Source: Verrucomicrobiota bacterium
GTDB lineage: Bacteria; Verrucomicrobiota; Verrucomicrobiia; Opitutales; Opitutaceae
Assembly (NCBI GenBank): GCA_025352985.1
Contig: JANXRL010000174.1
Span: forward strand, 1-37,789
DNA: 37,789 bases
Direction of reading: 5' to 3'
Shown here: piece by piece, positions 2,682 to 21,653 of the stretch
Numbering within the stretch: position 1 is the first letter of the stretch
How the letters are laid out: every line of letters begins with the position of its first letter
Notes under the pieces: generated by a model
Databases searched by the model: none
The model's input: the letters and a program-made list of their open reading frames with translations, nothing else
Told to the model about the DNA's origin: nothing
Translations under genes and position numbers: made by a program

Positions 2682-3533
2682 TCAATCAAACACCACGGTC
2701 TTGTTCCCATAGACGAGAACGCGGCTTTCCAGGTGCCAACGCACGGCTTGGGCGAGCACCATCTTCTCCAGATCGCGCCCCTTGCGGACAAGGTCTTCAA
2801 CGCCGTGGCGATGGGTGACGCGCGTGACATCTTGCTGAATGATGGGGCCGTCATCGAGCACGGCGGTGGCGTAGTGGGCGGTCGCGCCGATGAGCTTCAC
2901 TCCGCGTTCGGCGGCCTGATGGTAAGGTTTGCCACCGGCGAACGCCGGCAAAAACGAATGGTGAATGTTAATGACCGGCCGAGCGAATTTTTTAAAAAAA
3001 GTGTCGGACAGGACCTGCATGTAGCGGGCGAGAACAACGAGCTCGACGTCGAGATCGCGGAGCAGCGCGAGCTGGCGCGCCTCGCCGGCGGGCTTCGTGG
3101 CGGCGGTGACTGGAATGACGTGATACGGCAGGCCGTAGCCGCGCGCGGCGGTTTCGAGGTCAGTGTGGTTCGAGACGACGGCAACAAGATCGCAGGCGTA
3201 TTCTCCGGACTTCCAGCGGAGCGCGAGGTCGTGGAAGCAGTGGTCGAACTTGGAGACGAATATCGCCATGCGAGGGCGGTGCGCCGAGGCAGTCACCCGG
3301 GCCTGCATGCCGAGCGAGTCTGCAAAGGCGAGAAAGCCGGCGGTGTCGGTCGAAGACGCGCCCTGTGCAGGCACCCACTCAATGCGCTGGAAAAACACTC
3401 CCGCCTCCATGTCTCGATGTTGGTCGGCATGAAGGATGTTTCCACCGCGCTCGAAGATCCAGGCGGCCACGCGCGCCACGATTCCGGGCTGGTCGGGGCC
3501 GTGAAGGAGAGCGACAAGAGTGGAGGAAGACAT
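2682..3533 (-). CDS. purU: Formyltetrahydrofolate deformylase
   Basis: The protein hydrolyses 10-formyltetrahydrofolate to tetrahydrofolate and formate, supplying formate for PurT and balancing one-carbon pools in the cytoplasm. From ATG 3533 it is 283 residues, the normal PurU length; a GTG 11 codons upstream (3566) would add an unneeded extension. An N-terminal ACT domain (about residues 1-80, starting 'LVALLHGPDQPGIVARVA') is followed by a formyltransferase-type hydrolase domain. That domain carries 'INIHHSFLPAF' (the family's Asn-x-His catalytic segment), 'PYHQA', 'GATAHY' and 'LDDGPIIQQD'; the last Asp belongs to the catalytic set. It stands alone, downstream of the lipid operon on the same strand but separated from it by a hairpin. 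Identification is firm. Confidence 0.95.
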   Translation of the reverse strand: MSSSTLVALLHGPDQPGIVARVAAWIFERGGNILHADQHRDMEAGVFFQRIEWVPAQGASSTDTAGFLAFADSLGMQARVTASAHRPRMAIFVSKFDHCFHDLALRWKSGEYACDLVAVVSNHTDLETAARGYGLPYHVIPVTAATKPAGEARQLALLRDLDVELVVLARYMQVLSDTFFKKFARPVINIHHSFLPAFAGGKPYHQAAERGVKLIGATAHYATAVLDDGPIIQQDVTRVTHRHGVEDLVRKGRDLEKMVLAQAVRWHLESRVLVYGNKTVVFD

Positions 3534-3586
3534 TTGTTCACTGAGGCAAAACCCCGCGATGGTCACAAACAGAAATCCCCTTAAAC

Positions 3587-3609
3587 CGTCATTTCACCGG
3601 GAGATGACG
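3587..3609 (-). terminator. Stem-loop at the end of the lipid-remodelling operon
   Basis: A 9-bp stem (3587-3595 with 3601-3609, one G-T pair) and a 5-base loop lie just downstream of the PlcP-like gene on the - strand. On that strand only a weak T-tract (GTTTAAG) follows; on the + strand a stronger T6 run follows after five bases. It may separate the operon from purU, but efficiency is uncertain. Confidence 0.45.
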
Positions 3610-3617
3610 CGGATTTT

Positions 3618-4463
3618 TTAATTTCCAGGTTCCGTCAATTTAACGGCTGCGTCTAACCTTGGCGCCGCTTGGGGCGAATTATCCTCGTTTGAATACTCGT
3701 CTTCCGGAAGCGGGAACTGCCTGATGAATTGGCCGAAATCCAGCACCTCAAAGCGGCCGTCGTAGTGTTCGACGATCGCCGTAAGCGATTCCACCCAGTC
3801 GCCGGAATTCAGGTAATGCACGTTGCCCAGCATCTTGTCGCTGGCGGTGTGGATGTGGCCGCAGATGATGCCCACGCATTCACGGTCCTCGGCCAGCTTG
3901 GCGAGATGGTCTTCGAATTTGGAGATGTGATTAACCGCAGACTTCACGCGCGCCTTGATCGCCTTGCTCAGGGACCAGTATTCGAGTCCGCGCCATGCGC
4001 GCCATGCGTTGTAGCCGCGGTTCAGGGCGAGAAGCGTGCGATATCCCCAGTCGCCTAGGTGCGCCAGAAAGACAAAGTTGCGGGTGATCGTATCAAACAC
4101 GTCGCCGTGCAGCACAAGGTATCGGCCGCGCGAAGTCTCGTGAACATAATCCTCGACGATGTGGAGATTCTCAAACTGAAGAGGAAGAAATGAAGCCAGG
4201 ATATCGTCGTGATTTCCCCGCAGATAGATCACCTCGGTGTCGCGTTTTTCGATTTTTTTGAGGACGAGTCGAATGAAACGGGTGTGCGCCTTGGTCCAGC
4301 GGCCCGACCGACTGAGCTGCCAGCCATCGATGATATCTCCGTTAAGAATAAGTTTATCGCAACGCGTATGTTGGAGGAAATGATTCACCTCGCGGATCTT
4401 GCAATCCGCCGTGCCAAGGTGGACGTCGGAGATGATTACGGTGCGGACATTAAGTTTACTCAT
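3618..4463 (-). CDS. PlcP/LpxH-like metallophosphoesterase (probable phospholipase C; databases often say UDP-2,3-diacylglucosamine diphosphatase)
   Basis: This 281-residue cytoplasmic calcineurin-fold phosphoesterase has the full two-metal set: Asp13 and His15 (SDVHLG), Asp43 (NGDIIDGW), Asn84-His85 (GNHDD), His119 (LHGD), and His203 and His205 (GHIHTA). The segment 'EYWSLS...VKSAVNHISKFE' and the closing 'YLNSGDWVESLTAIVEHYDGRFE' resemble, as I recall the family, PlcP of Sinorhizobium meliloti more than classical LpxH. PlcP is a Mn-dependent phospholipase C that releases diacylglycerol from phospholipids under phosphate starvation. Its ATG overlaps the stop of the lipid kinase gene (ATGA, 4460-4463), making it the last gene of a three-gene operon with a glycolipid glycosyltransferase. 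That context favours a PlcP-type role over lipid A synthesis. The C-terminal ~30 residues are low complexity. Fold certain; substrate inferred. Confidence 0.8.
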   Translation of the reverse strand: MSKLNVRTVIISDVHLGTADCKIREVNHFLQHTRCDKLILNGDIIDGWQLSRSGRWTKAHTRFIRLVLKKIEKRDTEVIYLRGNHDDILASFLPLQFENLHIVEDYVHETSRGRYLVLHGDVFDTITRNFVFLAHLGDWGYRTLLALNRGYNAWRAWRGLEYWSLSKAIKARVKSAVNHISKFEDHLAKLAEDRECVGIICGHIHTASDKMLGNVHYLNSGDWVESLTAIVEHYDGRFEVLDFGQFIRQFPLPEDEYSNEDNSPQAAPRLDAAVKLTEPGN

Positions 4464-5416
4464 ACGGTCTCCATTTTCCGGTGCGAATTTTTATGAGCCA
4501 CAGAGCCTGAGGAACGATGCTTTCCGCCGAGGACCGGAGTTGGCACGCTCACGCGCAGGTTTGCGGAACGGACCACCACCTCAAGGCGCGCCGGGCCGTC
4601 GTGAGTTTCCCCGTCGGTGTGAAAAAGACCCGGCGCGTTGCGCTCAATGACGAAGCGTTCGCCAACTAGGCGCACTACGTTCTTGCTAAGATCAAAACCG
4701 CCGGAAAATAGACGCACCGCTAGGGAAGCCGCACCAATCAATCCCGTGGGACGCACCGCAACAAGATCCAAGCGGCCGTCGTCAACGCGCGCCCCCGGGG
4801 CGATACGGGCATTGTTTCCATACTGGTCGGAGTTGGTGACAGCCAGGAGAAAGGTTTCCATTTCAACCCGCCGGTCCCCGCTGATAATCGTGACCTGTTC
4901 GGTTTTGTGATCACGAAAAGCGGCGATGCCGGTGCGGAAATACGCAGGCAGGCCCCTGCTCGTAAGCTGATTGAAACGTCGGCTGATCTCGGCATCGAAA
5001 CCCAACCCCATGGCGTTGAAAAAAGACCGTCCGGCCACTTCGCCAGTATCGATGGTGCGGACATGACTGCGGCCATCGACCAGCAACTCGAGTGCGCGCA
5101 GAGGATTGACCGGGATGCCAAGATGGAGCGCGAGACCATTGCCGGAACCGCACGGCACAAGCGCGAAAACAGCGGGCGTGCCGGCGACGGCTTGGGCGAC
5201 TTCGTTCAAAGTGCCGTCGCCACCGACGGCGACAACCCGCTCGCAGCCTTCCTCAATGGCCAAGCGAGCCAGGGCCGTGGCGTGACCTGGCGCCTCCGTG
5301 AAGACGAGCGTCGCATCTAGGCGATGCTTGGCGATAAAGGCAGGAATGGCGGTGGCCAGCCAGGGATTGCGCCGGTTTTTCCCCGAGCACGGATTAAAAA
5401 TAAAACAGGTCTTCAT
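4460..5416 (-). CDS. Diacylglycerol kinase family lipid kinase (YegS/DgkB-like)
   Basis: The 318-residue protein has the DAGK catalytic domain: an N-terminal 'FIFNPCSGKNR', the nucleotide-binding 'GGDGTLNE' (residues 65-72), 'PCGSGNGLA' (88-96) and 'NAMGLGFDAE'. Near the C-terminus a 'GLFHTDGE' segment precedes the usual final strands. It should phosphorylate diacylglycerol (or a related lipid) to phosphatidic acid at the inner face of the cytoplasmic membrane. An upstream frame extension to 5527 lies inside the preceding gene; ATG 5416 is preferred because it overlaps that gene's stop as ATGA, and the stop of this gene overlaps the next start the same way. Between a glycolipid synthase and a PlcP-like enzyme, its likely task is returning surplus diacylglycerol to phospholipid synthesis. 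Lipid specificity is not visible from sequence. Confidence 0.85.
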   Translation of the reverse strand: MKTCFIFNPCSGKNRRNPWLATAIPAFIAKHRLDATLVFTEAPGHATALARLAIEEGCERVVAVGGDGTLNEVAQAVAGTPAVFALVPCGSGNGLALHLGIPVNPLRALELLVDGRSHVRTIDTGEVAGRSFFNAMGLGFDAEISRRFNQLTSRGLPAYFRTGIAAFRDHKTEQVTIISGDRRVEMETFLLAVTNSDQYGNNARIAPGARVDDGRLDLVAVRPTGLIGAASLAVRLFSGGFDLSKNVVRLVGERFVIERNAPGLFHTDGETHDGPARLEVVVRSANLRVSVPTPVLGGKHRSSGSVAHKNSHRKMETV

Positions 5417-7698
5417 TGAGTGAGTTCGGGAAGGGCGATGCCTGCTTCTTTTAAAACGCAGTCGGCGATAACGGCCGCCGCATGAGGGCGTGCGAGCGGC
5501 TTGAGCGCCGTGCGCCAAGCGGACCACACCGCTCCCTTGTCGGCAAAGGCGCGTCGGCAGACTTCCATCAATACGTCAGGCGTATCGGCAAACGCTCCTA
5601 TACCGTGACGGCGCAGCAGCTCGTAGTTGCCCTCCTCCTGTCCCGGCACGATCTGACTGACAATCATGGGACAGCGAGCAGCGATCGCCTCCTGCGTGGT
5701 CGCGCCACCTGCTTTGCTCACGACCACATGGTGCGTCATCATCAGATGAGGTATCTGGTCCGTCCAACCGAAGATTTTAACGGGCGCAACACGACCGGCG
5801 GCCGCGCACTCCAGATGGTGGCGCATGGCTTCATCACGGCCGACGGCGAACGTAAGCTCCCAATCGGAGTCTGCAATCAACCGTTCCGCCATACCGGCCA
5901 CCCCGCGCACGCCGGAATGTGCAATAAATAAAACCCGCGGACGCGCCCCTTCCGCAAGCGGCGGCGGCGCGAGTTGATCCTCGTTTTCAGCAAAAAACAC
6001 CGGGGTGGGAAACCCGCAGTCATGCACGCGCTGCGGCGAAACTCCGGCAGCGTGGAGCACGGCGGCCGATTCGACATTGGGCACAAACCAACCGGCGCAA
6101 GGCGCGCCCCACCACAGCGAATTGATGCTGATGGAATCCGTGACGACATTGTAGTGCGGCGGCGGGGTGAGCCCGTCCCGTTTCATCTGCTCTATCATGA
6201 AAGCATAAACCGGATAAGTGCTGCAGATGACAACCGGACGCTCACGGGCGATGAGTGCGGCCAAGCGGCGAATCTGGGGTTTCAGGAGATTTGGCAGCAG
6301 AGCCTGAAAGCGATGCGAACGGTCGAGCCAGCCGTAGAGCGCACTCCAGACTTTGGGCACCCGATTGATGATTGAAAGATAGGCGCCACGGCTAAAGGCG
6401 TCCAGACGAGGCGCCGTGAGTGAGAAAATATCGACCACGCGCGCGGTGCCCGGCCCTTGATCGGCATTGACGGCGATGGCAAGATTTCGGGCGGCGGCGT
6501 TGTGCCCCTCCCCGTAGCTGGCGGAGAGAATGAGCAAACGCGCGGGGGCGGGCGGGCGCGATTCGGCAACGGTGGCGGCGAGATCCGACTCGAAACGGGC
6601 GACCACATTTTCCCAGGATTGATGGGCGACGGAAACAGGCGCGGCGGTTCTGATTTTGCGCCTAAGTGCGGCATCGCTCACGAGCCGGACGGCGGCCGCT
6701 TCAAGCGCCGCAGGCTGATCGCACGGTGCGACGAGACCGTTCTCCTCGTGGCGCACAAACAGACGGGCGGCCGCGTAATCAAAGCCGGCGACCGCAAGGC
6801 CGCTGCCCATCGCCTCGGTCAGCACGTTGCCGAAAGTTTCGGAGAGGCTGGCGTGAATGTAGATATCGGCCGAGGCATAGTGTCGTGCAAGGTTCTCGCG
6901 CGACATGAAGCCCGTGAAAATGCACTCGGGATGATCGGTCTGAAGGCGCGCGCGCAAGGGACCGTCGCCTACCACGACGAACCGGGTGCGCGGGTTGGCC
7001 GCGCGCATGGCGGCGTAGCACTTGAAAAGATGCGGATAGTTTTTTTCGGTGGCCATGCGCCCCACATGCAGGACGACGGGATCATCCGGGGCGGCGCCCC
7101 ATTCGGCTCGCAGAGAGGCATCCCGCAGCGAGGGTGAAAACTGGCGCAGATCAATGCCGCGTGAAAGCGGGCGCAGGTTTTTGAAACCGAGCACGGCCAG
7201 TTCGACGGAAAGTTCCTTGGTGGGCACGAATGTCTGGCAGGTGCGGTTATGCACGCGGCGCAACCACGAGAGCGTGGCATGATGGAAGAGCGCAAAGCCG
7301 TAGCTCGAGGCGTATTGGTGAAAGTTGGTGTGAAAACTGGAAGTCACCGGAATTTTAAGCGCGCGGGCGGCGGAGACGGCGGTCGCGCCAAGCGGCCCCT
7401 CGGTGACCACATGGACGATATCCGGCGGATCCGCCCGCCAAAGTTTTTTGAGACGGTGAAAGGCGGGAAGACCTAGCCTCAGCAATGCGTAGCCGGGAAT
7501 CGGAATACCCGGCATGGAGACCTCCCGGAAATCGCGGCGCACGTTATCACCAGGAAGATCAGGACGATGCGGACGATACACCGTCACAGTGTGACCGCGG
7601 CGTCCGAGTTCTGCGGCGATGACGCCGAACGTCATCGAAACCCCGTTGATCTCCGGAGGGAACGTTTCGGTGACGATGGCGATTTTCAGATTCTCCAT
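5413..7698 (-). CDS. Two-domain glycosyltransferase: GT4 (MgtA/SqdX-like) fused to MGDG-synthase-type GT28
   Basis: The 761-residue protein carries two complete glycosyltransferases. Residues 1-375 are GT4: 'IVTETFPPEINGV' at the start, the sugar-nucleotide segment 'HVGRMATEKN' (211-220) and the E-x7-E motif Glu287...Glu295 in 'SETFGNVLTE'. A short Ala/Pro-rich linker (about 378-386) leads to an MGDG-synthase-like N-domain with 'SASYGEGHNAAA' (His399). The GT28-type C-domain has 'VVSKAGGATTQEA' and 'VPGQEEGN', as in plant MGD1 and Bacillus UgtP. Diacylglycerol is the expected acceptor of the second half, and the GT4 half could add another sugar, giving mono- and diglycosyl-diacylglycerol at the cytoplasmic membrane. 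It is the first gene of the operon, with an AGGTGA ribosome-binding site (7702-7707), and it overlaps the lipid kinase by ATGA. Sugar donors and reaction order are inference. Confidence 0.85.
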   Translation of the reverse strand: MENLKIAIVTETFPPEINGVSMTFGVIAAELGRRGHTVTVYRPHRPDLPGDNVRRDFREVSMPGIPIPGYALLRLGLPAFHRLKKLWRADPPDIVHVVTEGPLGATAVSAARALKIPVTSSFHTNFHQYASSYGFALFHHATLSWLRRVHNRTCQTFVPTKELSVELAVLGFKNLRPLSRGIDLRQFSPSLRDASLRAEWGAAPDDPVVLHVGRMATEKNYPHLFKCYAAMRAANPRTRFVVVGDGPLRARLQTDHPECIFTGFMSRENLARHYASADIYIHASLSETFGNVLTEAMGSGLAVAGFDYAAARLFVRHEENGLVAPCDQPAALEAAAVRLVSDAALRRKIRTAAPVSVAHQSWENVVARFESDLAATVAESRPPAPARLLILSASYGEGHNAAARNLAIAVNADQGPGTARVVDIFSLTAPRLDAFSRGAYLSIINRVPKVWSALYGWLDRSHRFQALLPNLLKPQIRRLAALIARERPVVICSTYPVYAFMIEQMKRDGLTPPPHYNVVTDSISINSLWWGAPCAGWFVPNVESAAVLHAAGVSPQRVHDCGFPTPVFFAENEDQLAPPPLAEGARPRVLFIAHSGVRGVAGMAERLIADSDWELTFAVGRDEAMRHHLECAAAGRVAPVKIFGWTDQIPHLMMTHHVVVSKAGGATTQEAIAARCPMIVSQIVPGQEEGNYELLRRHGIGAFADTPDVLMEVCRRAFADKGAVWSAWRTALKPLARPHAAAVIADCVLKEAGIALPELTQ

Positions 7699-7858
7699 GT
7701 GTCACCTATCTAATACCATCGGTGTTACAGTCTCGTATCGTTTGTGTGACGATGGCGGAAATTCATCTCTTCACGCATTTTAAGGTAATCACACAATCGC
7801 TGCACTCGGAGATACCGAGTGCAGAATGATCATCCGGACGAAAGCCCGCGACCAACAT
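7699..7858 (-). promoter_or_regulatory. Upstream region of the lipid operon with heptamer repeats and inverted repeat
   Basis: On the - strand, heptamers GTCACAC (7750-7744), GTAACAC (7728-7722) and GTGACAC (7705-7699) recur at 22 and 23 bases, two helical turns apart; the last overlaps the ribosome-binding site. The first is also half of a perfect 8-bp inverted repeat, TTGTGTGA (7742-7749) and TCACACAA (7789-7796). These could be regulator sites, but they do not match the canonical E. coli Pho box and no clear -35/-10 pair stands out. Confidence 0.3.
7801..7823 (-). terminator. Stem-loop downstream of carB
   Basis: A perfect 9-bp stem (TGCACTCGG with CCGAGTGCA) closes a 5-base loop, 36 bases past the carB stop. 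No long T-run follows on either strand, so it may be a weak or Rho-assisted terminator or an mRNA-stabilising structure. Confidence 0.5.
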
Positions 7859-11101
<3,243 letters not shown>

Positions 11102-17239: not shown

Positions 17240-18211
17240 ATGGCCGCACCCGCGATTTATCCCGTTTCCGACCACTGTGACGGCGCGCGCTTCTTCAATC
17301 CGCGCCCGCCGCCCGATCTTGGACGTCACGCCGTTCTCCGATGGAAGCTCACCTCGCGCCCCGCCCGCTGGCCGGGCAACGTGCCCGTGTTTCCCGTCAA
17401 GCCGCCCGCCCACACCGGCGGCATCACGGCGACGTGGATCAATCACTCGACGTTTCTGCTTCAAACCGCTCGCGGCAACATCCTCACCGACCCCGTTTAC
17501 AGCGAGCGCACCAGTCCGGTCTCGTGGGCCGGCCCCAGACGCACGCACGCGCCGGGCATCGCGTTTTACGATCTTCCCCGCATCGACCTCGTGCTGCTCA
17601 GCCACGATCATTACGACCACTGCGACCTGCCGACCCTCGCGCGCATCTGGAAAACCCACGCGCCCGCCGCCATCACTCCGCTGGGCAACGGCCCCCTGCT
17701 TCGAGCCGCCGGCTGGGCTCCCGAAAAAATCACGGAGCTCGATTGGTGGGAGTCACAGCTCACGCCTTCCGACCTGCGCGTCACCGCCACGCCCGCGCAT
17801 CACTGGAGCAACCGCCTGCGCAGCGCTCGCAACCGCCGCCTGTGGAGCGGCTTTTTCCTGGAGACCGGCGAGGCCACAGCCCACTTCGTGGGCGACACCG
17901 GCTACGATCCTTCGATGTTCGTCTTCATCCGCACACGGCTCGGCGCGCCCGATCTCGCGATGATTCCCATCGGCGCCTACGAGCCGCGCTGGTTCATGGA
18001 GAACCACCACTGCAACCCCGAAGAAGCAGTGCGCATCCATCACGATCTCGGCTCGCGGCTCAGCCTCGCGATGCACTGGGGCACCTTTCAACTCACCGAC
18101 GAAGCCCGCGAAGCGCCGCCACAGGCGCTGACCGCCGCGCTCGCGCATTCAAACACGCCGACAAACGCTTTTCGCGTCCTCTCACCGGGTGAAAGCGCCC
18201 GGAGCGCGTAA
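17240..18211 (+). CDS. NAPE-PLD-like metallo-beta-lactamase-fold hydrolase (UlaG/COG2220 type)
   Basis: The 323-residue cytoplasmic protein has the metallo-beta-lactamase metal ligands in order: His122, His124, Asp126 and His127 ('SHDHYDH'), His187/His188 ('PAHHWS'), Asp219 ('VGDTGYD') and His279 ('MHWGTF'). The segment 'PIGAYEPRWFM...HCNPEEAV' is characteristic of the branch that includes mammalian N-acyl-phosphatidylethanolamine phospholipase D and its bacterial relatives. By family, the substrate could be a phosphodiester such as an N-acyl phospholipid, but bacterial members are poorly characterised. It has no signal peptide and no operon partner, and ends six bases before the convergent mlaA stop. 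Fold certain, activity unknown. Confidence 0.85.
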   Translation: MAAPAIYPVSDHCDGARFFNPRPPPDLGRHAVLRWKLTSRPARWPGNVPVFPVKPPAHTGGITATWINHSTFLLQTARGNILTDPVYSERTSPVSWAGPRRTHAPGIAFYDLPRIDLVLLSHDHYDHCDLPTLARIWKTHAPAAITPLGNGPLLRAAGWAPEKITELDWWESQLTPSDLRVTATPAHHWSNRLRSARNRRLWSGFFLETGEATAHFVGDTGYDPSMFVFIRTRLGAPDLAMIPIGAYEPRWFMENHHCNPEEAVRIHHDLGSRLSLAMHWGTFQLTDEAREAPPQALTAALAHSNTPTNAFRVLSPGESARSA

Positions 18212-18217
18212 CCCGTC

Positions 18218-18982
18218 CTATTGTTGCACCGCCGCATCCCGATATTGGATGTAGGCGCTGCGCACAGAAACGTAGGGATCGAGAGCGGCTTTCTTCTCGT
18301 CATCGTAAAGCTTGAGCAGCCCGGGTAGCGAGTTGATCGAGTCCGTGGCCTGTAACGCGGTGTCCCACCACCACCGGTGCCCATCCACATTCCGCAGTTG
18401 GTCCCAGTGGAGGGGATTCAGGAAATAATCGCCCACCAGACCCACCGTATCCCGCGCCGAACCCGGTCCGAAGACCGGCAGGACTAGATACGGCCCCTTG
18501 TGAATACCCCACACCCCCAACGTCTGCCCGAGGTCTTCGCTCGGCACATCAGTGAGGGCGGGAACGCCGTCGGAAGCCCGGATAAAGCCGCCCAAGCCGG
18601 CGAGCGTGTTAACGACAAATTTTTCCGTCTCAAGCCCAGCACGCTTCAATTTACCCTGCAGCAACGAATTCACAAACCGGATGGGGAAACGCAGATTGGA
18701 GAAAAAATTACCCAACCCCCGGCGCGCCGGCGCGGGCACCACCATGACGTAACCCGTGGACACCGGCCGAAACACATAATCATACAGGCCGTCGTTGAAC
18801 TTGAACATCGCCCGGTTAAACGACTCCAGAGGATCGTAGATTTTGGCGACGGCGTATTCGTCTTCATCCACCGCGTTCTTGGTCGCCGCGTCAGGCGGGG
18901 GATTTTGCTGCGCGCGCACCGGTGATGCCGCCAGAAGGGTCAGACTGATCCATAAGAAAAATTGAAACGGACGAATGTTCAT
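18218..18982 (-). CDS. mlaA: MlaA (VacJ) family outer-membrane phospholipid-removal protein
   Basis: MlaA sits in the outer membrane and extracts phospholipids from the outer leaflet, passing them to MlaC. The 254-residue protein has the MlaA signature: 'YDPLESFNRAMFKFND', 'PVSTGYVMVVPAPARRGLGNFFSNL', 'ETEKFVVNTLAG', 'DLGQTLGVWGIHKGPYLVLPVFGP', and a C-terminal 'WDTALQATDSIN'. A signal peptide is present (cleavage probably after 'VRA', residue 24). The usual lipobox Cys is missing: at the matching place the sequence is Leu17-Ala-Ala-Ser20, so the protein is probably not lipidated. It is the last gene of an mlaEFDCA operon, with its ATG overlapping the mlaC stop (ATGA). In E. coli mlaA lies apart from the other genes; here it is joined. 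Confidence 0.93.
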   Translation of the reverse strand: MNIRPFQFFLWISLTLLAASPVRAQQNPPPDAATKNAVDEDEYAVAKIYDPLESFNRAMFKFNDGLYDYVFRPVSTGYVMVVPAPARRGLGNFFSNLRFPIRFVNSLLQGKLKRAGLETEKFVVNTLAGLGGFIRASDGVPALTDVPSEDLGQTLGVWGIHKGPYLVLPVFGPGSARDTVGLVGDYFLNPLHWDQLRNVDGHRWWWDTALQATDSINSLPGLLKLYDDEKKAALDPYVSVRSAYIQYRDAAVQQ

Positions 18983-19581
18983 TTGGCGGTGGAAACCTGG
19001 GTTATTTTTTCCTCAAGCGAGCGCATGATCTCGGCGGCCCCGCCACGCTGGAACATCGGGTCGAACTGGGCCCGATAGTTGGAAATCATGCTAACGCCTT
19101 CGATGATGACGTCGCAGACACGCCATTGGTCCGCGACCAACTCCATGCGGTAGGCGACGGAGTATTTTTTGCCAGCGTAGTCGATGGTGGTCGGCAATTC
19201 GCGCTTGTTTCGAGAGAGCTCGACGGGGGCCGCGTAGGTGATGCCAGGCTGCGCACCGACCTCGAAACGGTCGGCATAGGTGTGGATCACGAGTTCGGTG
19301 AAAAGCGCGGTGGTCTTCGCCTGCTGCGCCGGGGTGAACTGGCGCCAGCCTGGTCCGACCGCACGGCGAGTGATCAGATCAAAACTGAAATTTTTCTCCA
19401 GCACAGGGCGGACCAGAACGGAAAAGGACTGGGTCTGGGTCTTGCCGCTGTAAACGATGCCGAGCACCTCGTCCACCGCGCCGCGCAGCACTTGCAACGG
19501 ATCGGCGGCCGGAGTGGCCGCAACTGCGGCAAAAGCCGTGAAACTCGCTATAAATATCAGGATGAGGCGAACGAAACGCAT
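18979..19581 (-). CDS. mlaC: MlaC family periplasmic phospholipid-binding protein
   Basis: MlaC ferries phospholipid across the periplasm between MlaA and the MlaFED complex. The 200-residue protein has a signal peptide (hydrophobic 5-18, 'AAVAATPA' cleavage region). The mature MlaC/Ttg2D domain includes 'PVLEKNFSFDLITRRAVGPGWRQFTPAQQ', 'YADRF', 'VAYRMELVADQWRVCDVIIEGVSMISNYRAQF' and a C-terminal helix. It lies 12 bases downstream of mlaD and overlaps mlaA by ATGA. Confident. Confidence 0.93.
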   Translation of the reverse strand: MRFVRLILIFIASFTAFAAVAATPAADPLQVLRGAVDEVLGIVYSGKTQTQSFSVLVRPVLEKNFSFDLITRRAVGPGWRQFTPAQQAKTTALFTELVIHTYADRFEVGAQPGITYAAPVELSRNKRELPTTIDYAGKKYSVAYRMELVADQWRVCDVIIEGVSMISNYRAQFDPMFQRGGAAEIMRSLEEKITQVSTAK

Positions 19582-19593
19582 GGTAGAGATAGA

Positions 19594-20058
19594 CTACTTA
19601 CTGTCTTTTTTCTCCACGTTGCCAAACGCAAAACGACTGATGAGCGACTCGATGTCGAGGGCCGCCTCGGTGTCCGTGATGGTCGCGCCCGGCGCGAGAA
19701 ACGCCGTGTCCGACCCTGGGGAGAGCCCCACATATTTGTCGCCGATCAGGCCGGAGGTCTTGATGGATGCGATGGTGTCGGTGGGCAGCTTGACGACCTT
19801 TTCGAGCTTAAGCTCTACCAGCGCGCTGAAATCGGCGGGATTGAGCGTGATGGCGCCCACCCGGCCGATGGGCACGCCGGCGACGAGGACGTTGCTGCCG
19901 CTGGTGAGTCCGCCGCTGTTGGTGAAGCGCGCGCGCACCGAGTAGGTTTCGGAACCCACGAGGGAGCCGGCGCCGATTTTCAGCGCGAGGTAGGCCACCG
20001 CGATCAGGCCGGCGAGGACAAAGATGCCAACCACCAGTTCAAGTTTGGGCTGTTTCAT
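19594..20058 (-). CDS. mlaD: MlaD family MCE-domain protein
   Basis: MlaD is a membrane-anchored MCE protein whose hexameric ring forms the lipid channel above the MlaE permease. The 154-residue protein is short but complete: one N-terminal transmembrane helix (about 8-27, 'LVVGIFVLAGLIAVAYLALK') and one MCE domain. The domain has 'VRARFTNSGGLTSGSNVLVAGVPIGRV' and 'IKTSGLIGDKYVGLSPG', a classical MCE signature. A charged C-terminal tail follows ('NVEKKDSK'). Its ATG overlaps the mlaF stop (ATGA). Confident. Confidence 0.94.
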   Translation of the reverse strand: MKQPKLELVVGIFVLAGLIAVAYLALKIGAGSLVGSETYSVRARFTNSGGLTSGSNVLVAGVPIGRVGAITLNPADFSALVELKLEKVVKLPTDTIASIKTSGLIGDKYVGLSPGSDTAFLAPGATITDTEAALDIESLISRFAFGNVEKKDSK

Positions 20059-20873
20059 AAATCATTTCGGTTTTCGATGGTTTCACCCCGGCGGAGCGCG
20101 GCAACAGTGTCACGCAGCTCGCCCGCGCTGTCGCGGAAGGAACGAACCGTCGGATCATCCGACGCGTTAAACTGGGCGGGGGTTCCCTGGAAACGCATGC
20201 GACCGCCATCCAGCAGCGCGACCTGGTCGCTCGAGACCAGCGCTTCCGGCAGGTCATGCGTGACCAAGACCGCCGTGAAACCAAACTGGCGCTGGTATTT
20301 CACGATCATCTGGAACACGGCGTTGCGGCGCAGCGGATCGAGGCCGGCGGTGGGCTCATCGAACAAAACAAGCTCGGGGCGGGTTACGATCGCCCGCGCC
20401 AAGGCGAGACGTTTCTGCATGCCGCCTGACAACTGCCCGGGATGGCGATCCCAGTGCTTTTCAAGATCAAGCTGGCGAAGCGCCTCCAGAGCACGCTCGC
20501 GAATCTCTCGATTGGGAATCTGCGTGGTGGATTCGAGCGGCAGCGCGACGTTTTCCAACACGGTGAGCGAATCCAGCAGCGCGTTGCTTTGAAAAAGATA
20601 ACTACAGCGGCTACGGAATTCCGCCCGGCATTCGGCGTCACCCGCGTTCAACGGGCGCCCGTCAAAACGAATCTCCCCCGCATCCGGCCTGACGATGCCG
20701 GCGAGACACTTCAAGAAGACCGATTTGCCCGTGCCGCTCTTACCAAGCACCGTGACCACGCTGCCGCGAGGCACGGCCAGATCCACACCCACCAGCACGA
20801 CGTTTTCGCCGAAGCGCTTGGCGATGCCACGGACGTCGAGGAAAAGATCACCCATTGGAGTTGAAGATGCCAT
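20055..20873 (-). CDS. mlaF: MlaF ATP-binding subunit of the phospholipid ABC transporter
   Basis: This is the cytoplasmic ATPase that powers MlaE. The 272-residue protein has Walker A 'GKSGTGKS' (44-51), a Q-loop 'LFQSNALLDSLTVLENVALPL' typical of MlaF, the signature 'LSGGMQKRLALARAI', Walker B 'LVLFDEPTAGLDP' and switch 'VTHD'. The C-terminus extends about 30 residues past the nucleotide-binding core, as in MlaF. It starts three bases after the mlaE stop and overlaps mlaD by ATGA. No mlaB (STAS-domain partner) follows in the operon. Confident. Confidence 0.94.
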   Translation of the reverse strand: MASSTPMGDLFLDVRGIAKRFGENVVLVGVDLAVPRGSVVTVLGKSGTGKSVFLKCLAGIVRPDAGEIRFDGRPLNAGDAECRAEFRSRCSYLFQSNALLDSLTVLENVALPLESTTQIPNREIRERALEALRQLDLEKHWDRHPGQLSGGMQKRLALARAIVTRPELVLFDEPTAGLDPLRRNAVFQMIVKYQRQFGFTAVLVTHDLPEALVSSDQVALLDGGRMRFQGTPAQFNASDDPTVRSFRDSAGELRDTVAALRRGETIENRNDL

Positions 20874-20876
20874 GGG

Positions 20877-21653
20877 TCAGACGAGGAAAGAGGTGATGAC
20901 GTAGTCGGCGGCGAGCACCGTGATGCTTGAAATGACGACGGCACGCGTGGTCGAGGCGCTCACGGCGCGCGCTCCGGAAGCGGACGTGCGACGGTGGGCG
21001 TTGAAGCCGTTGTAGGCGCAGATCGCAATGGTCAGCAGGCCGAAGATCGCGGCCTTGATCATGCACTCGCGCACATCCACGGGATGCACCGCGTGGAAAA
21101 CCGCCGACCAATACACGCCGGGCTGGAGCGCCAGCACGACCGATCCCGACAAATATCCGCCCAAAAGACCGATGAGACAGAAAAACGCGGTCTGGATGGG
21201 AAACACCAGCACGGCGGCGATTAAGCGCGGCGAAATCAGGTAGGCGTGCACATCGGCCCCCATGGTTTCGAGCGCATCGATTTGCTCGCTGTTGCGCTGG
21301 ATGCCGAGTTCGGCGGCGAGCGCGGATCCGGCCTGCCCGACAAGCATCAGGGCGGCGAGAACCGGCGCGAGTTCACGCACCAAGGTCAGCGACACTAGCG
21401 TCCCGAGCAGTCCGGAAGAGCCAAACTTGTTGAGCACGTAGTAGCCCTGCAGCCCCAGCACGAGCCCGGTGAAAAGCCCCACGATCATGATCACCGGCAC
21501 ACATCGCACGCCTTGTTCATAAATCGAGCGGACCACGCGTCGTCCCAGCTTGCGCGAACCCACCGCCGCAGCCAGCGACCGGCTCGTGAACAGGCCGAAG
21601 TCGCCGAGTTCACGGACTATGCGGAGGGTGTATTTACCAAGGACGCGGGTCAT
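20877..21653 (-). CDS. mlaE: MlaE permease subunit of the phospholipid ABC transporter
   Basis: MlaE is the integral inner-membrane subunit through which phospholipid moves. The 258-residue protein has an amphipathic N-terminal helix and about five or six hydrophobic segments. It carries the family motif region 'LVRELAPVLAALMLVGQAGSALAAELG...EQIDALETMG', followed by 'PRLIAAVLVFPI' and the C-terminal 'VLAADYVITSFL'. It heads the operon mlaE-F-D-C-A, and the upstream 93 bases separate it from uxaC on the same strand. Confident. Confidence 0.94.
   Translation of the reverse strand: MTRVLGKYTLRIVRELGDFGLFTSRSLAAAVGSRKLGRRVVRSIYEQGVRCVPVIMIVGLFTGLVLGLQGYYVLNKFGSSGLLGTLVSLTLVRELAPVLAALMLVGQAGSALAAELGIQRNSEQIDALETMGADVHAYLISPRLIAAVLVFPIQTAFFCLIGLLGGYLSGSVVLALQPGVYWSAVFHAVHPVDVRECMIKAAIFGLLTIAICAYNGFNAHRRTSASGARAVSASTTRAVVISSITVLAADYVITSFLV

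Follow-up and report, generated by a model that had tools for sequence, protein, structure and literature searches.

A probable phosphate-controlled glycolipid operon in Verrucomicrobiota, with a glycosyltransferase fusion, a lipid kinase and a PlcP-like phosphoesterase

We analysed a stretch of 37,789 nucleotides from a Verrucomicrobiota bacterium of the family Opitutaceae (GenBank assembly GCA_025352985.1, contig JANXRL010000174.1, positions 1 to 37,789; hereafter the window). Our subject is a three-gene operon on its minus strand, preceded by a putative Pho box, that very probably serves to exchange phospholipids for glycolipids when phosphate is scarce. The first gene, P0003, encodes a glycosyltransferase fusion that joins a glycosyltransferase family 4 (GT4) part to a part of the monogalactosyldiacylglycerol (MGDG) synthase type; P0002 encodes a lipid kinase, and P0001 a phosphoesterase. 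The features are as follows.

7723-7751, minus strand: Pho-box-like operator, CGTCACA-N4-CGATACG-N4-TGTAACA (conserved block; matrix from the pst promoters of relatives)
5413-7698, minus strand: glycosyltransferase fusion P0003, 761 aa, GT4 at ~1-385 and MGDG/UgtP-type at ~386-761 (Pfam, profile models)
4460-5416, minus strand: lipid kinase P0002 of the DgkB/YegS/BmrU family, 318 aa from ATG (Pfam, TIGR00147, structure match)
3618-4463, minus strand: PlcP-type metallophosphoesterase P0001, 281 aa, last gene of the operon (Pfam, identity to PlcP, active-site residues)

The genes overlap by ATGA at both junctions (minus-strand positions 5416-5413 and 4463-4460). A sequence-only reading of this DNA had described three genes with two such overlaps, encoding a fusion of GT4 and MGDG-type domains, a kinase of the diacylglycerol kinase family and a metallophosphoesterase, and coordinates and Pfam agree with that description.

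P0001 matches Pfam Metallophos at 54 bits. Two phosphoesterases served as yardsticks for PlcP: that of a Sinorhizobium meliloti record (L005), whose neighbours are genes for an acyl-homoserine-lactone synthase and a LuxR protein, and that of a Pseudomonas aeruginosa plasmid record (L008), which lies directly upstream of a glycosyltransferase. We take the former to be the original PlcP, its neighbours fitting the sinI/sinR region; the latter has the arrangement described for PA3219, directly upstream of PA3218 (PMC8528852; this and the other papers are cited from excerpts). The yardsticks are 48.1% identical to each other, and 46% identity is reported between PA3219 and S. meliloti PlcP (PMC8528852). 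P0001 is 48.0% identical to P. aeruginosa PlcP (213 bits), 42.0% to S. meliloti PlcP (196 bits) and 21.6% to Escherichia coli LpxH (32 bits). The sequence-only reading had seen a resemblance to PlcP in the C-terminal half of this protein; the resemblance held up, its restriction to that half did not, for the match spans residues ~2-246.

Relatives of P0001 bear the database name UDP-2,3-diacylglucosamine diphosphatase, which favours a different account: that gene 3 is the genome's LpxH, acting in lipid A synthesis, with the glycosyltransferases serving lipopolysaccharide or capsule. LpxH models do pick up P0001 weakly (37.3 and 17.2 bits), but its 17.2 bits with the LpxH model TIGR01854, whose cut-off is 190.35, are below the scores of both PlcP yardsticks (44.5 and 38.9 bits) and far below that of E. 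coli LpxH (388.9 bits). The active-site positions D13, H15, D43, N84, H119, H203 and H205 are identical in all 86 aligned rows. Position 85, in the GNHD motif, is His in 85 of 85 non-LpxH rows, P0001 included, and Arg in LpxH; the change to Arg in the GN(R)D motif is described as exclusive to LpxH (PMC5016852). In a tree, P0001 fell within a 63-row group containing P. aeruginosa PlcP (Shimodaira–Hasegawa-like approximate likelihood ratio test, SH-aLRT, 86). Because LpxH entered the tree as a single, very long row, and 31 of 83 inner branches stayed open, we based the PlcP identity on the scores and residue 85 instead.

The genome itself has an LpxI, with LpxI_C at 137.8 bits and LpxI_N at 91.6 bits, both well above their cut-offs, and no match to the LpxH model at E ≤ 10 in an assembly that is 92% complete. 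In favour of the lipid A account, the LpxI protein reaches 117.4 bits of the 400 required by the NCBIfam equivalog model, and an LpxH could have been missed at this completeness; against it, the operon's promoter motif is one that it has in common with the pst (phosphate importer) cluster (see below). We rejected the LpxH reading, which we now regard as very improbable, on the model scores, the missing LpxH-model match, the presence of LpxI, the identity to PlcP and His85. An LpxH-like gene 3 in a genome with no other lpxH or lpxI, which would have spoken against a phospholipase, is thus not what was found, and the suspicion that the usual database name would hide the function proved right. 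By these sequence measures, P0001 is PlcP-like and not an LpxH. P. aeruginosa LpxH2 and E. coli LpxH do belong to the same metallophosphoesterase family and have the same metal ligands as P0001, which differs in lacking the LpxH Arg and in its score with the LpxH model. LpxH2 reportedly shares 28% identity with E. coli LpxH, contains an aromatic-rich insertion and acts on a different substrate (PMC5016852). Our P. aeruginosa PlcP yardstick and E. coli LpxH share 28.1% identity across 121 residues, and since the two figures agree, LpxH2 is probably PlcP.

P0003 carries Glyco_transf_4 and Glycos_transf_1 at residues 17-353 and MGDG_synth (PF06925) at 399-564, the last with 49.2 bits against a gathering score of 25. 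The GT4 half resembles Agt and MGlcDAG synthase: it has the donor motifs GRMATEKN and HASLSETFG, which fit the GRVAXEKN-type and FPSXTDTFG-type motifs of Agt-type GT4 enzymes (PMC8231724). Curated GT4 models stayed below their cut-offs on P0003 (127.1 of 480 bits for GlcN-PG synthase, 97.8 of 400 for MGlcDAG synthase) and also on the P. aeruginosa Agt1 control (59.9 and 50.7 bits). The C-terminal half resembles the diglucosyl-diacylglycerol synthase UgtP/YpfP and plant MGD1; residues 387-754 align to positions 6-371 of the 388-position diglucosyl-diacylglycerol synthase model with 131.8 bits, and there are matches to the solved structures 9wde (74 bits) and 4wyi (51 bits). P0003 differs from these enzymes in that this half is fused behind a GT4 domain and lies far under the equivalog cut-off of 500.

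We searched 250 genomes of the family with the whole of P0003 and found matches in 196. At least four carry the GT4-MGDG fusion at full length without a stop (the window's genome and three others at 92%, 72% and 72% identity), and at least six have it at full length with one in-frame stop, as two genes in frame; in the remaining family genomes among the matches listed, the GT4 and MGDG genes are split. Among the stop-containing forms, the junction reads TAA immediately before the ATG of the second gene in L125 and L126, and two to six codons separate stop and ATG in L127-L130. The fused forms lack the stop-containing stretch present at the junction of L125-L130. We infer that the fusion arose through a deletion that removed the stop between two genes already in frame. 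An assembly error was ruled out as its source, because three other genomes carry the fusion without a stop and the stop region of L125-L130 is missing from the fused forms. A scan of named genomes with P0003 returned five loci, one of them a close relative at 92% identity (L161, the metagenome-assembled "Verrucomicrobia bacterium isolate GL140_3_metabinner_49").

P0002 matches DAGK_cat (94 bits) and YegS_C (67 bits) and passes the cut-off of TIGR00147, the YegS/Rv2252/BmrU subfamily model (130.3 against 118.65 bits). It contains GGDGT and a C-terminal DGE, motifs with a catalytic role, and like other DgkB/YegS/BmrU lipid kinases it matches the family over nearly its full length; it is unlike them in that its gene lies inside a plcP operon. 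Members of the YegS/BmrU family vary in substrate, and sphingosine kinase 1 also matches P0002, weakly (22 bits). Both points allow that the kinase acts on another lipid (a sphingoid base, a glycolipid or a polyprenol), so that the operon's product would be a phosphorylated glycolipid or some other lipid of the cell surface. We think this unlikely: residues 2-279 align to the solved diacylglycerol kinase 3s40, the top-scoring proteins, which match over nearly the whole length, bear the names diacylglycerol kinase or BmrU (77 bits), and the operon would itself both make and use diacylglycerol. No match to an E. coli-type DgkA was found in the genome.

An alignment of the DNA upstream of the operon in the window and nine close relatives contained one conserved block, made of three 7-bp repeats at 11-bp spacing, whose first base lies 53 nt ahead of the P0003 start codon. 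The Pho box CTGTCATNNNNCTGTCAT has the same repeat spacing (PMC8528852). We set a first, simple scorer by eye from these ten upstream stretches, with p values taken from 6000 random stretches of the same loci. In the 15.5-kb stretch around the genome's own pst cluster, its best score fell just upstream of porin-pstS-pstC-pstA-pstB-phoU (PhoU identified by search, the other names read from open reading frames). All 12 pst promoters headed by a clearly matching porin, the own genome's included, had the motif at p < 0.01; none of nine stretches before a PstS without such a porin had a site, and these starts may fall inside the pst operon. Where the lipid operon lies near pst, 10 of 11 operon promoters had a site at p < 0.01.

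From the pst promoter sites of 11 relatives, with the own genome left out, we built a matrix. The first scorer was used to set the register of these sites, which makes the procedure slightly circular. On the window, the matrix placed the operon promoter first of 75,514 positions, with 27.4 at 7753 on the minus strand and 9.5 for the next position; on the own pst promoter it likewise gave the first position of the 15.5-kb stretch (30.9 versus 9.4). In the family, all nine operons with an MGDG gene had their site among the top three positions of their own locus, the weakest being L040 with a score of 4.6. A triple-repeat pattern written from the window's site recovered that site exactly in the own genome, together with two one-mismatch places, one in a gene and one intergenic, neither beside a phosphate gene by our reading of the open reading frames; a backward control gave none. 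The matrix could be tried on further genomes of this family.

PstS was found in 43 of 61 family genomes searched. In 11 of these related genomes, whose counts are not independent, the gap between operon and pst is 0.4-8.1 kb, so that at least 11 of the 43 PstS-bearing genomes have the two close together. In L167 the order on one strand is GT4-MGD-DAGK-PlcP-porin-PstS-PstC-PstA-PstB-PhoU-PhoB-PhoR. A helicase-like gene, presumably of the SNF2 type, occupies four of the five operon-pst intervals we read, and such a gene is likewise next to pst in the window's genome.

Because gene 3 is PlcP-like, the pst matrix ranks the operon promoter first and the operon lies close to pst in relatives, we consider it highly probable that the operon encodes PhoB-controlled remodelling of phospholipid to glycolipid under phosphate scarcity. 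The phosphate-limitation pathway proposed from the sequence alone was largely borne out by gene context, promoter and the proximity to pst. When phosphate runs short, a PhoB-type regulator would bind the triple 11-bp-spaced repeat before the operon. PlcP would then cleave the head groups of phospholipids, as expected from its homology to tested PlcP, and yield diacylglycerol and freed phosphate. The GT4 domain would put a first sugar on diacylglycerol in the manner of Agt, and the MGDG/UgtP-type domain may glycosylate either diacylglycerol or the monoglycosyl product, the order and the sugars being conjectural in both cases. In the weakest step, the kinase may convert surplus diacylglycerol to phosphatidic acid and so set the return to phospholipid.

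Several observations weigh against this interpretation. The best match to a PhoB model in the own genome reached 247.8 bits, below the cut-off of 296.2, and pst lies on a different contig from the operon there. One near-pst operon (L176) has no site (p = 0.35), and the kinase gene, present in six of the 11 near-pst operons, is missing from five. P0002 is not the sole candidate diacylglycerol kinase either, as the genome has a second DAGK_cat protein. Of 80 plcP loci examined across the phylum (see below), 19 had none of the partner genes by our search and one had the kinase only. Control by the motif is not universal: 11 of 55 phylum-wide loci had a site at p < 0.01, nine of them the MGDG-bearing operons of the family (several stretches are common to the near-pst and phylum-wide promoter sets). 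Finally, none of six same-family GT4-DAGK-PlcP operons without an MGDG gene (L039, L042, L044, L045, L048 and L049) had a site at p < 0.01, and their matrix ranks were 10-173; these are perhaps a constitutive version.

Such operons lend some weight to a constitutive pathway, in which the same enzymes make a permanent membrane glycolipid, the kinase recycles diacylglycerol and control by phosphate has become secondary or has disappeared. So do the single-chain fusions of GT4 and PlcP described below: none of the 17 scored had a site at p < 0.05. Against it stand the window's promoter, by far the top Pho-box score of the window, the conservation of the block in the window and nine close relatives (the same ten used to define it), and L170, a GT4-DAGK-PlcP operon that has a site (p = 0.0045) without an MGDG gene. 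We judge a constitutive role improbable for the window's operon and retain phosphate-controlled remodelling.

We looked at plcP neighbourhoods in 288 genomes of the phylum, where relatives of P0001 (E ≤ 1e-20) occurred in 87 genomes at 89 places. Counts cover 80 loci, leaving out the window's own, two G160 half-genes, G027, G033, G161, G205, G229 and G238. The domains of the window's proteins served to annotate each locus on the plcP strand, at limits of 50 bits for GT4, 60 for the MGDG type and 100 for the kinase. A lipid-type glycosyltransferase lay in the plcP gene run at 60 of the 80 loci, and a GT4 gene or domain at 55. GT4 alone accompanied plcP at 22 loci, GT4 and kinase at six, GT4 and MGDG type at six, and MGDG type without GT4 at five; in 18, GT4 was fused to plcP in one chain. 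Three (L038, L041 and L043) had all four as individual genes, ordered GT4-MGD-DAGK-PlcP; since GT4 and plcP stand two genes apart at these loci, we assigned them to the GT4 group on inspection. Across the family the gene set is common, and the GT4-MGDG fusion is restricted to a few members. The idea that the pathway is specially condensed into one operon here therefore did not survive: relatives have these genes too, in some cases with the order unchanged, and only the fusion is restricted. A similar pair also occurs in Bacteroidota, where a plasmid-labelled record of Parabacteroides distasonis (L007, 4977-6898) encodes a relative of P0001 (54%) whose gene overlaps one for a Glyco_trans_1_3 glycosyltransferase.

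The single GT4-PlcP chains, 640-760 aa long, come from 18 loci in 18 genomes of a sister family (f7).

GT4-PlcP fusion loci: L069, L072, L073, L075, L076, L080, L081, L083, L085-L094

Both donor motifs were present in 17 of 19 f7 chains of this size checked. L094 lacks the EKN motif, and its Pfam glycosyltransferase match is sub-threshold (23.5 of 26.4 bits); L095 has no recognisable glycosyltransferase domain and is outside the 18. The scorer that found no Pho box before these fusions (17 of the 18 loci scored) fails to detect the P. aeruginosa operon L008 as well (p = 0.93), and their Pho box may be of a different form. That GT4 and PlcP occur naturally in one chain independently supports the view that their reactions follow one another, and such a chain would allow the channelling of diacylglycerol to be studied within one protein. 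We tentatively suggest, while rather doubting it, that Verrucomicrobiota have repeatedly made PlcP-Agt single-chain or tightly coupled (GT4-PlcP across one family, GT4-MGDG in the window's genus), so that diacylglycerol would hardly leave the complex and the co-transcribed kinase would act as a valve between glycolipid and phospholipid.

Around the operon, 160 bp of intergenic DNA separate it from its upstream neighbour on the minus strand, carB (7859-11101), and a purU-like formyl-transferase gene (2682-3566) follows P0001 on the same strand. The intergenic DNA contains one further feature.

7800-7824, between the carB stop and the Pho box: perfect inverted repeat, 10 bp with a 5-base loop; terminator-like stem without a T run

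This repeat was not among the terminator-like sites called by our scan. A sigma-70 consensus scan of 3400-8100 gave one site against a shuffle mean of 1.6, and it was not at the operon promoter. Elsewhere in the window, a Mla-type phospholipid-transport cluster lies at 18218-21653 on the minus strand (MlaE, ABC ATPase, MlaD, MlaC and MlaA, in that order). On the plus strand, 17240-18211 encodes a bacterial enzyme resembling N-acyl-phosphatidylethanolamine-hydrolyzing phospholipase D (194 bits to the solved structure 4qn9, residues 54-319).

Verrucomicrobiota are common in soil, water and gut. Within the phylum, excerpts of the literature note a verrucomicrobial PlcP homologue (PMC4796936; repeated in PMC13086504), no PlcP in verrucomicrobial methanotrophs (PMC9239053), and ornithine lipids, not glycosyl-diacylglycerols, in Akkermansia muciniphila (PMC9981464). 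Joint literature searches returned no paper with all of Akkermansia, glycosyltransferase and PlcP, and none with all of plcP, diacylglycerol kinase, glycosyltransferase and phospholipase C; the word "kinase" is absent from the main text of the plcP-neighbourhood papers checked for it. As far as the excerpts and searches extend, the operon kinase, the double transferase and the GT4-PlcP chain were not found. Already known are PlcP-Agt systems with Pho box and glycosyltransferase neighbours.

The window's operon has the same PlcP-type enzyme as the PlcP-Agt remodelling systems of S. meliloti, Phaeobacter MED193, SAR11, P. aeruginosa and Methylosinus trichosporium, where a GT4 lipid glycosyltransferase is a frequent neighbour of PlcP and putative Pho boxes precede the genes (PMC4796936, PMC8528852, PMC9239053). 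It differs from them by the fusion of a second transferase, of the MGDG/UgtP type, to the GT4 and by a lipid kinase gene in between. In Methylobacter and Crenothrix, plcP is near a Bacillus-type diacylglycerol glycosyltransferase of the same kind as the C-terminal half of P0003, with neither GT4 fusion nor kinase described in the excerpts, unlike the window (PMC9239053). These findings would correct a misleading database name, UDP-2,3-diacylglucosamine diphosphatase, and extend Pho-controlled lipid remodelling, so far mainly from Proteobacteria, to Verrucomicrobiota.

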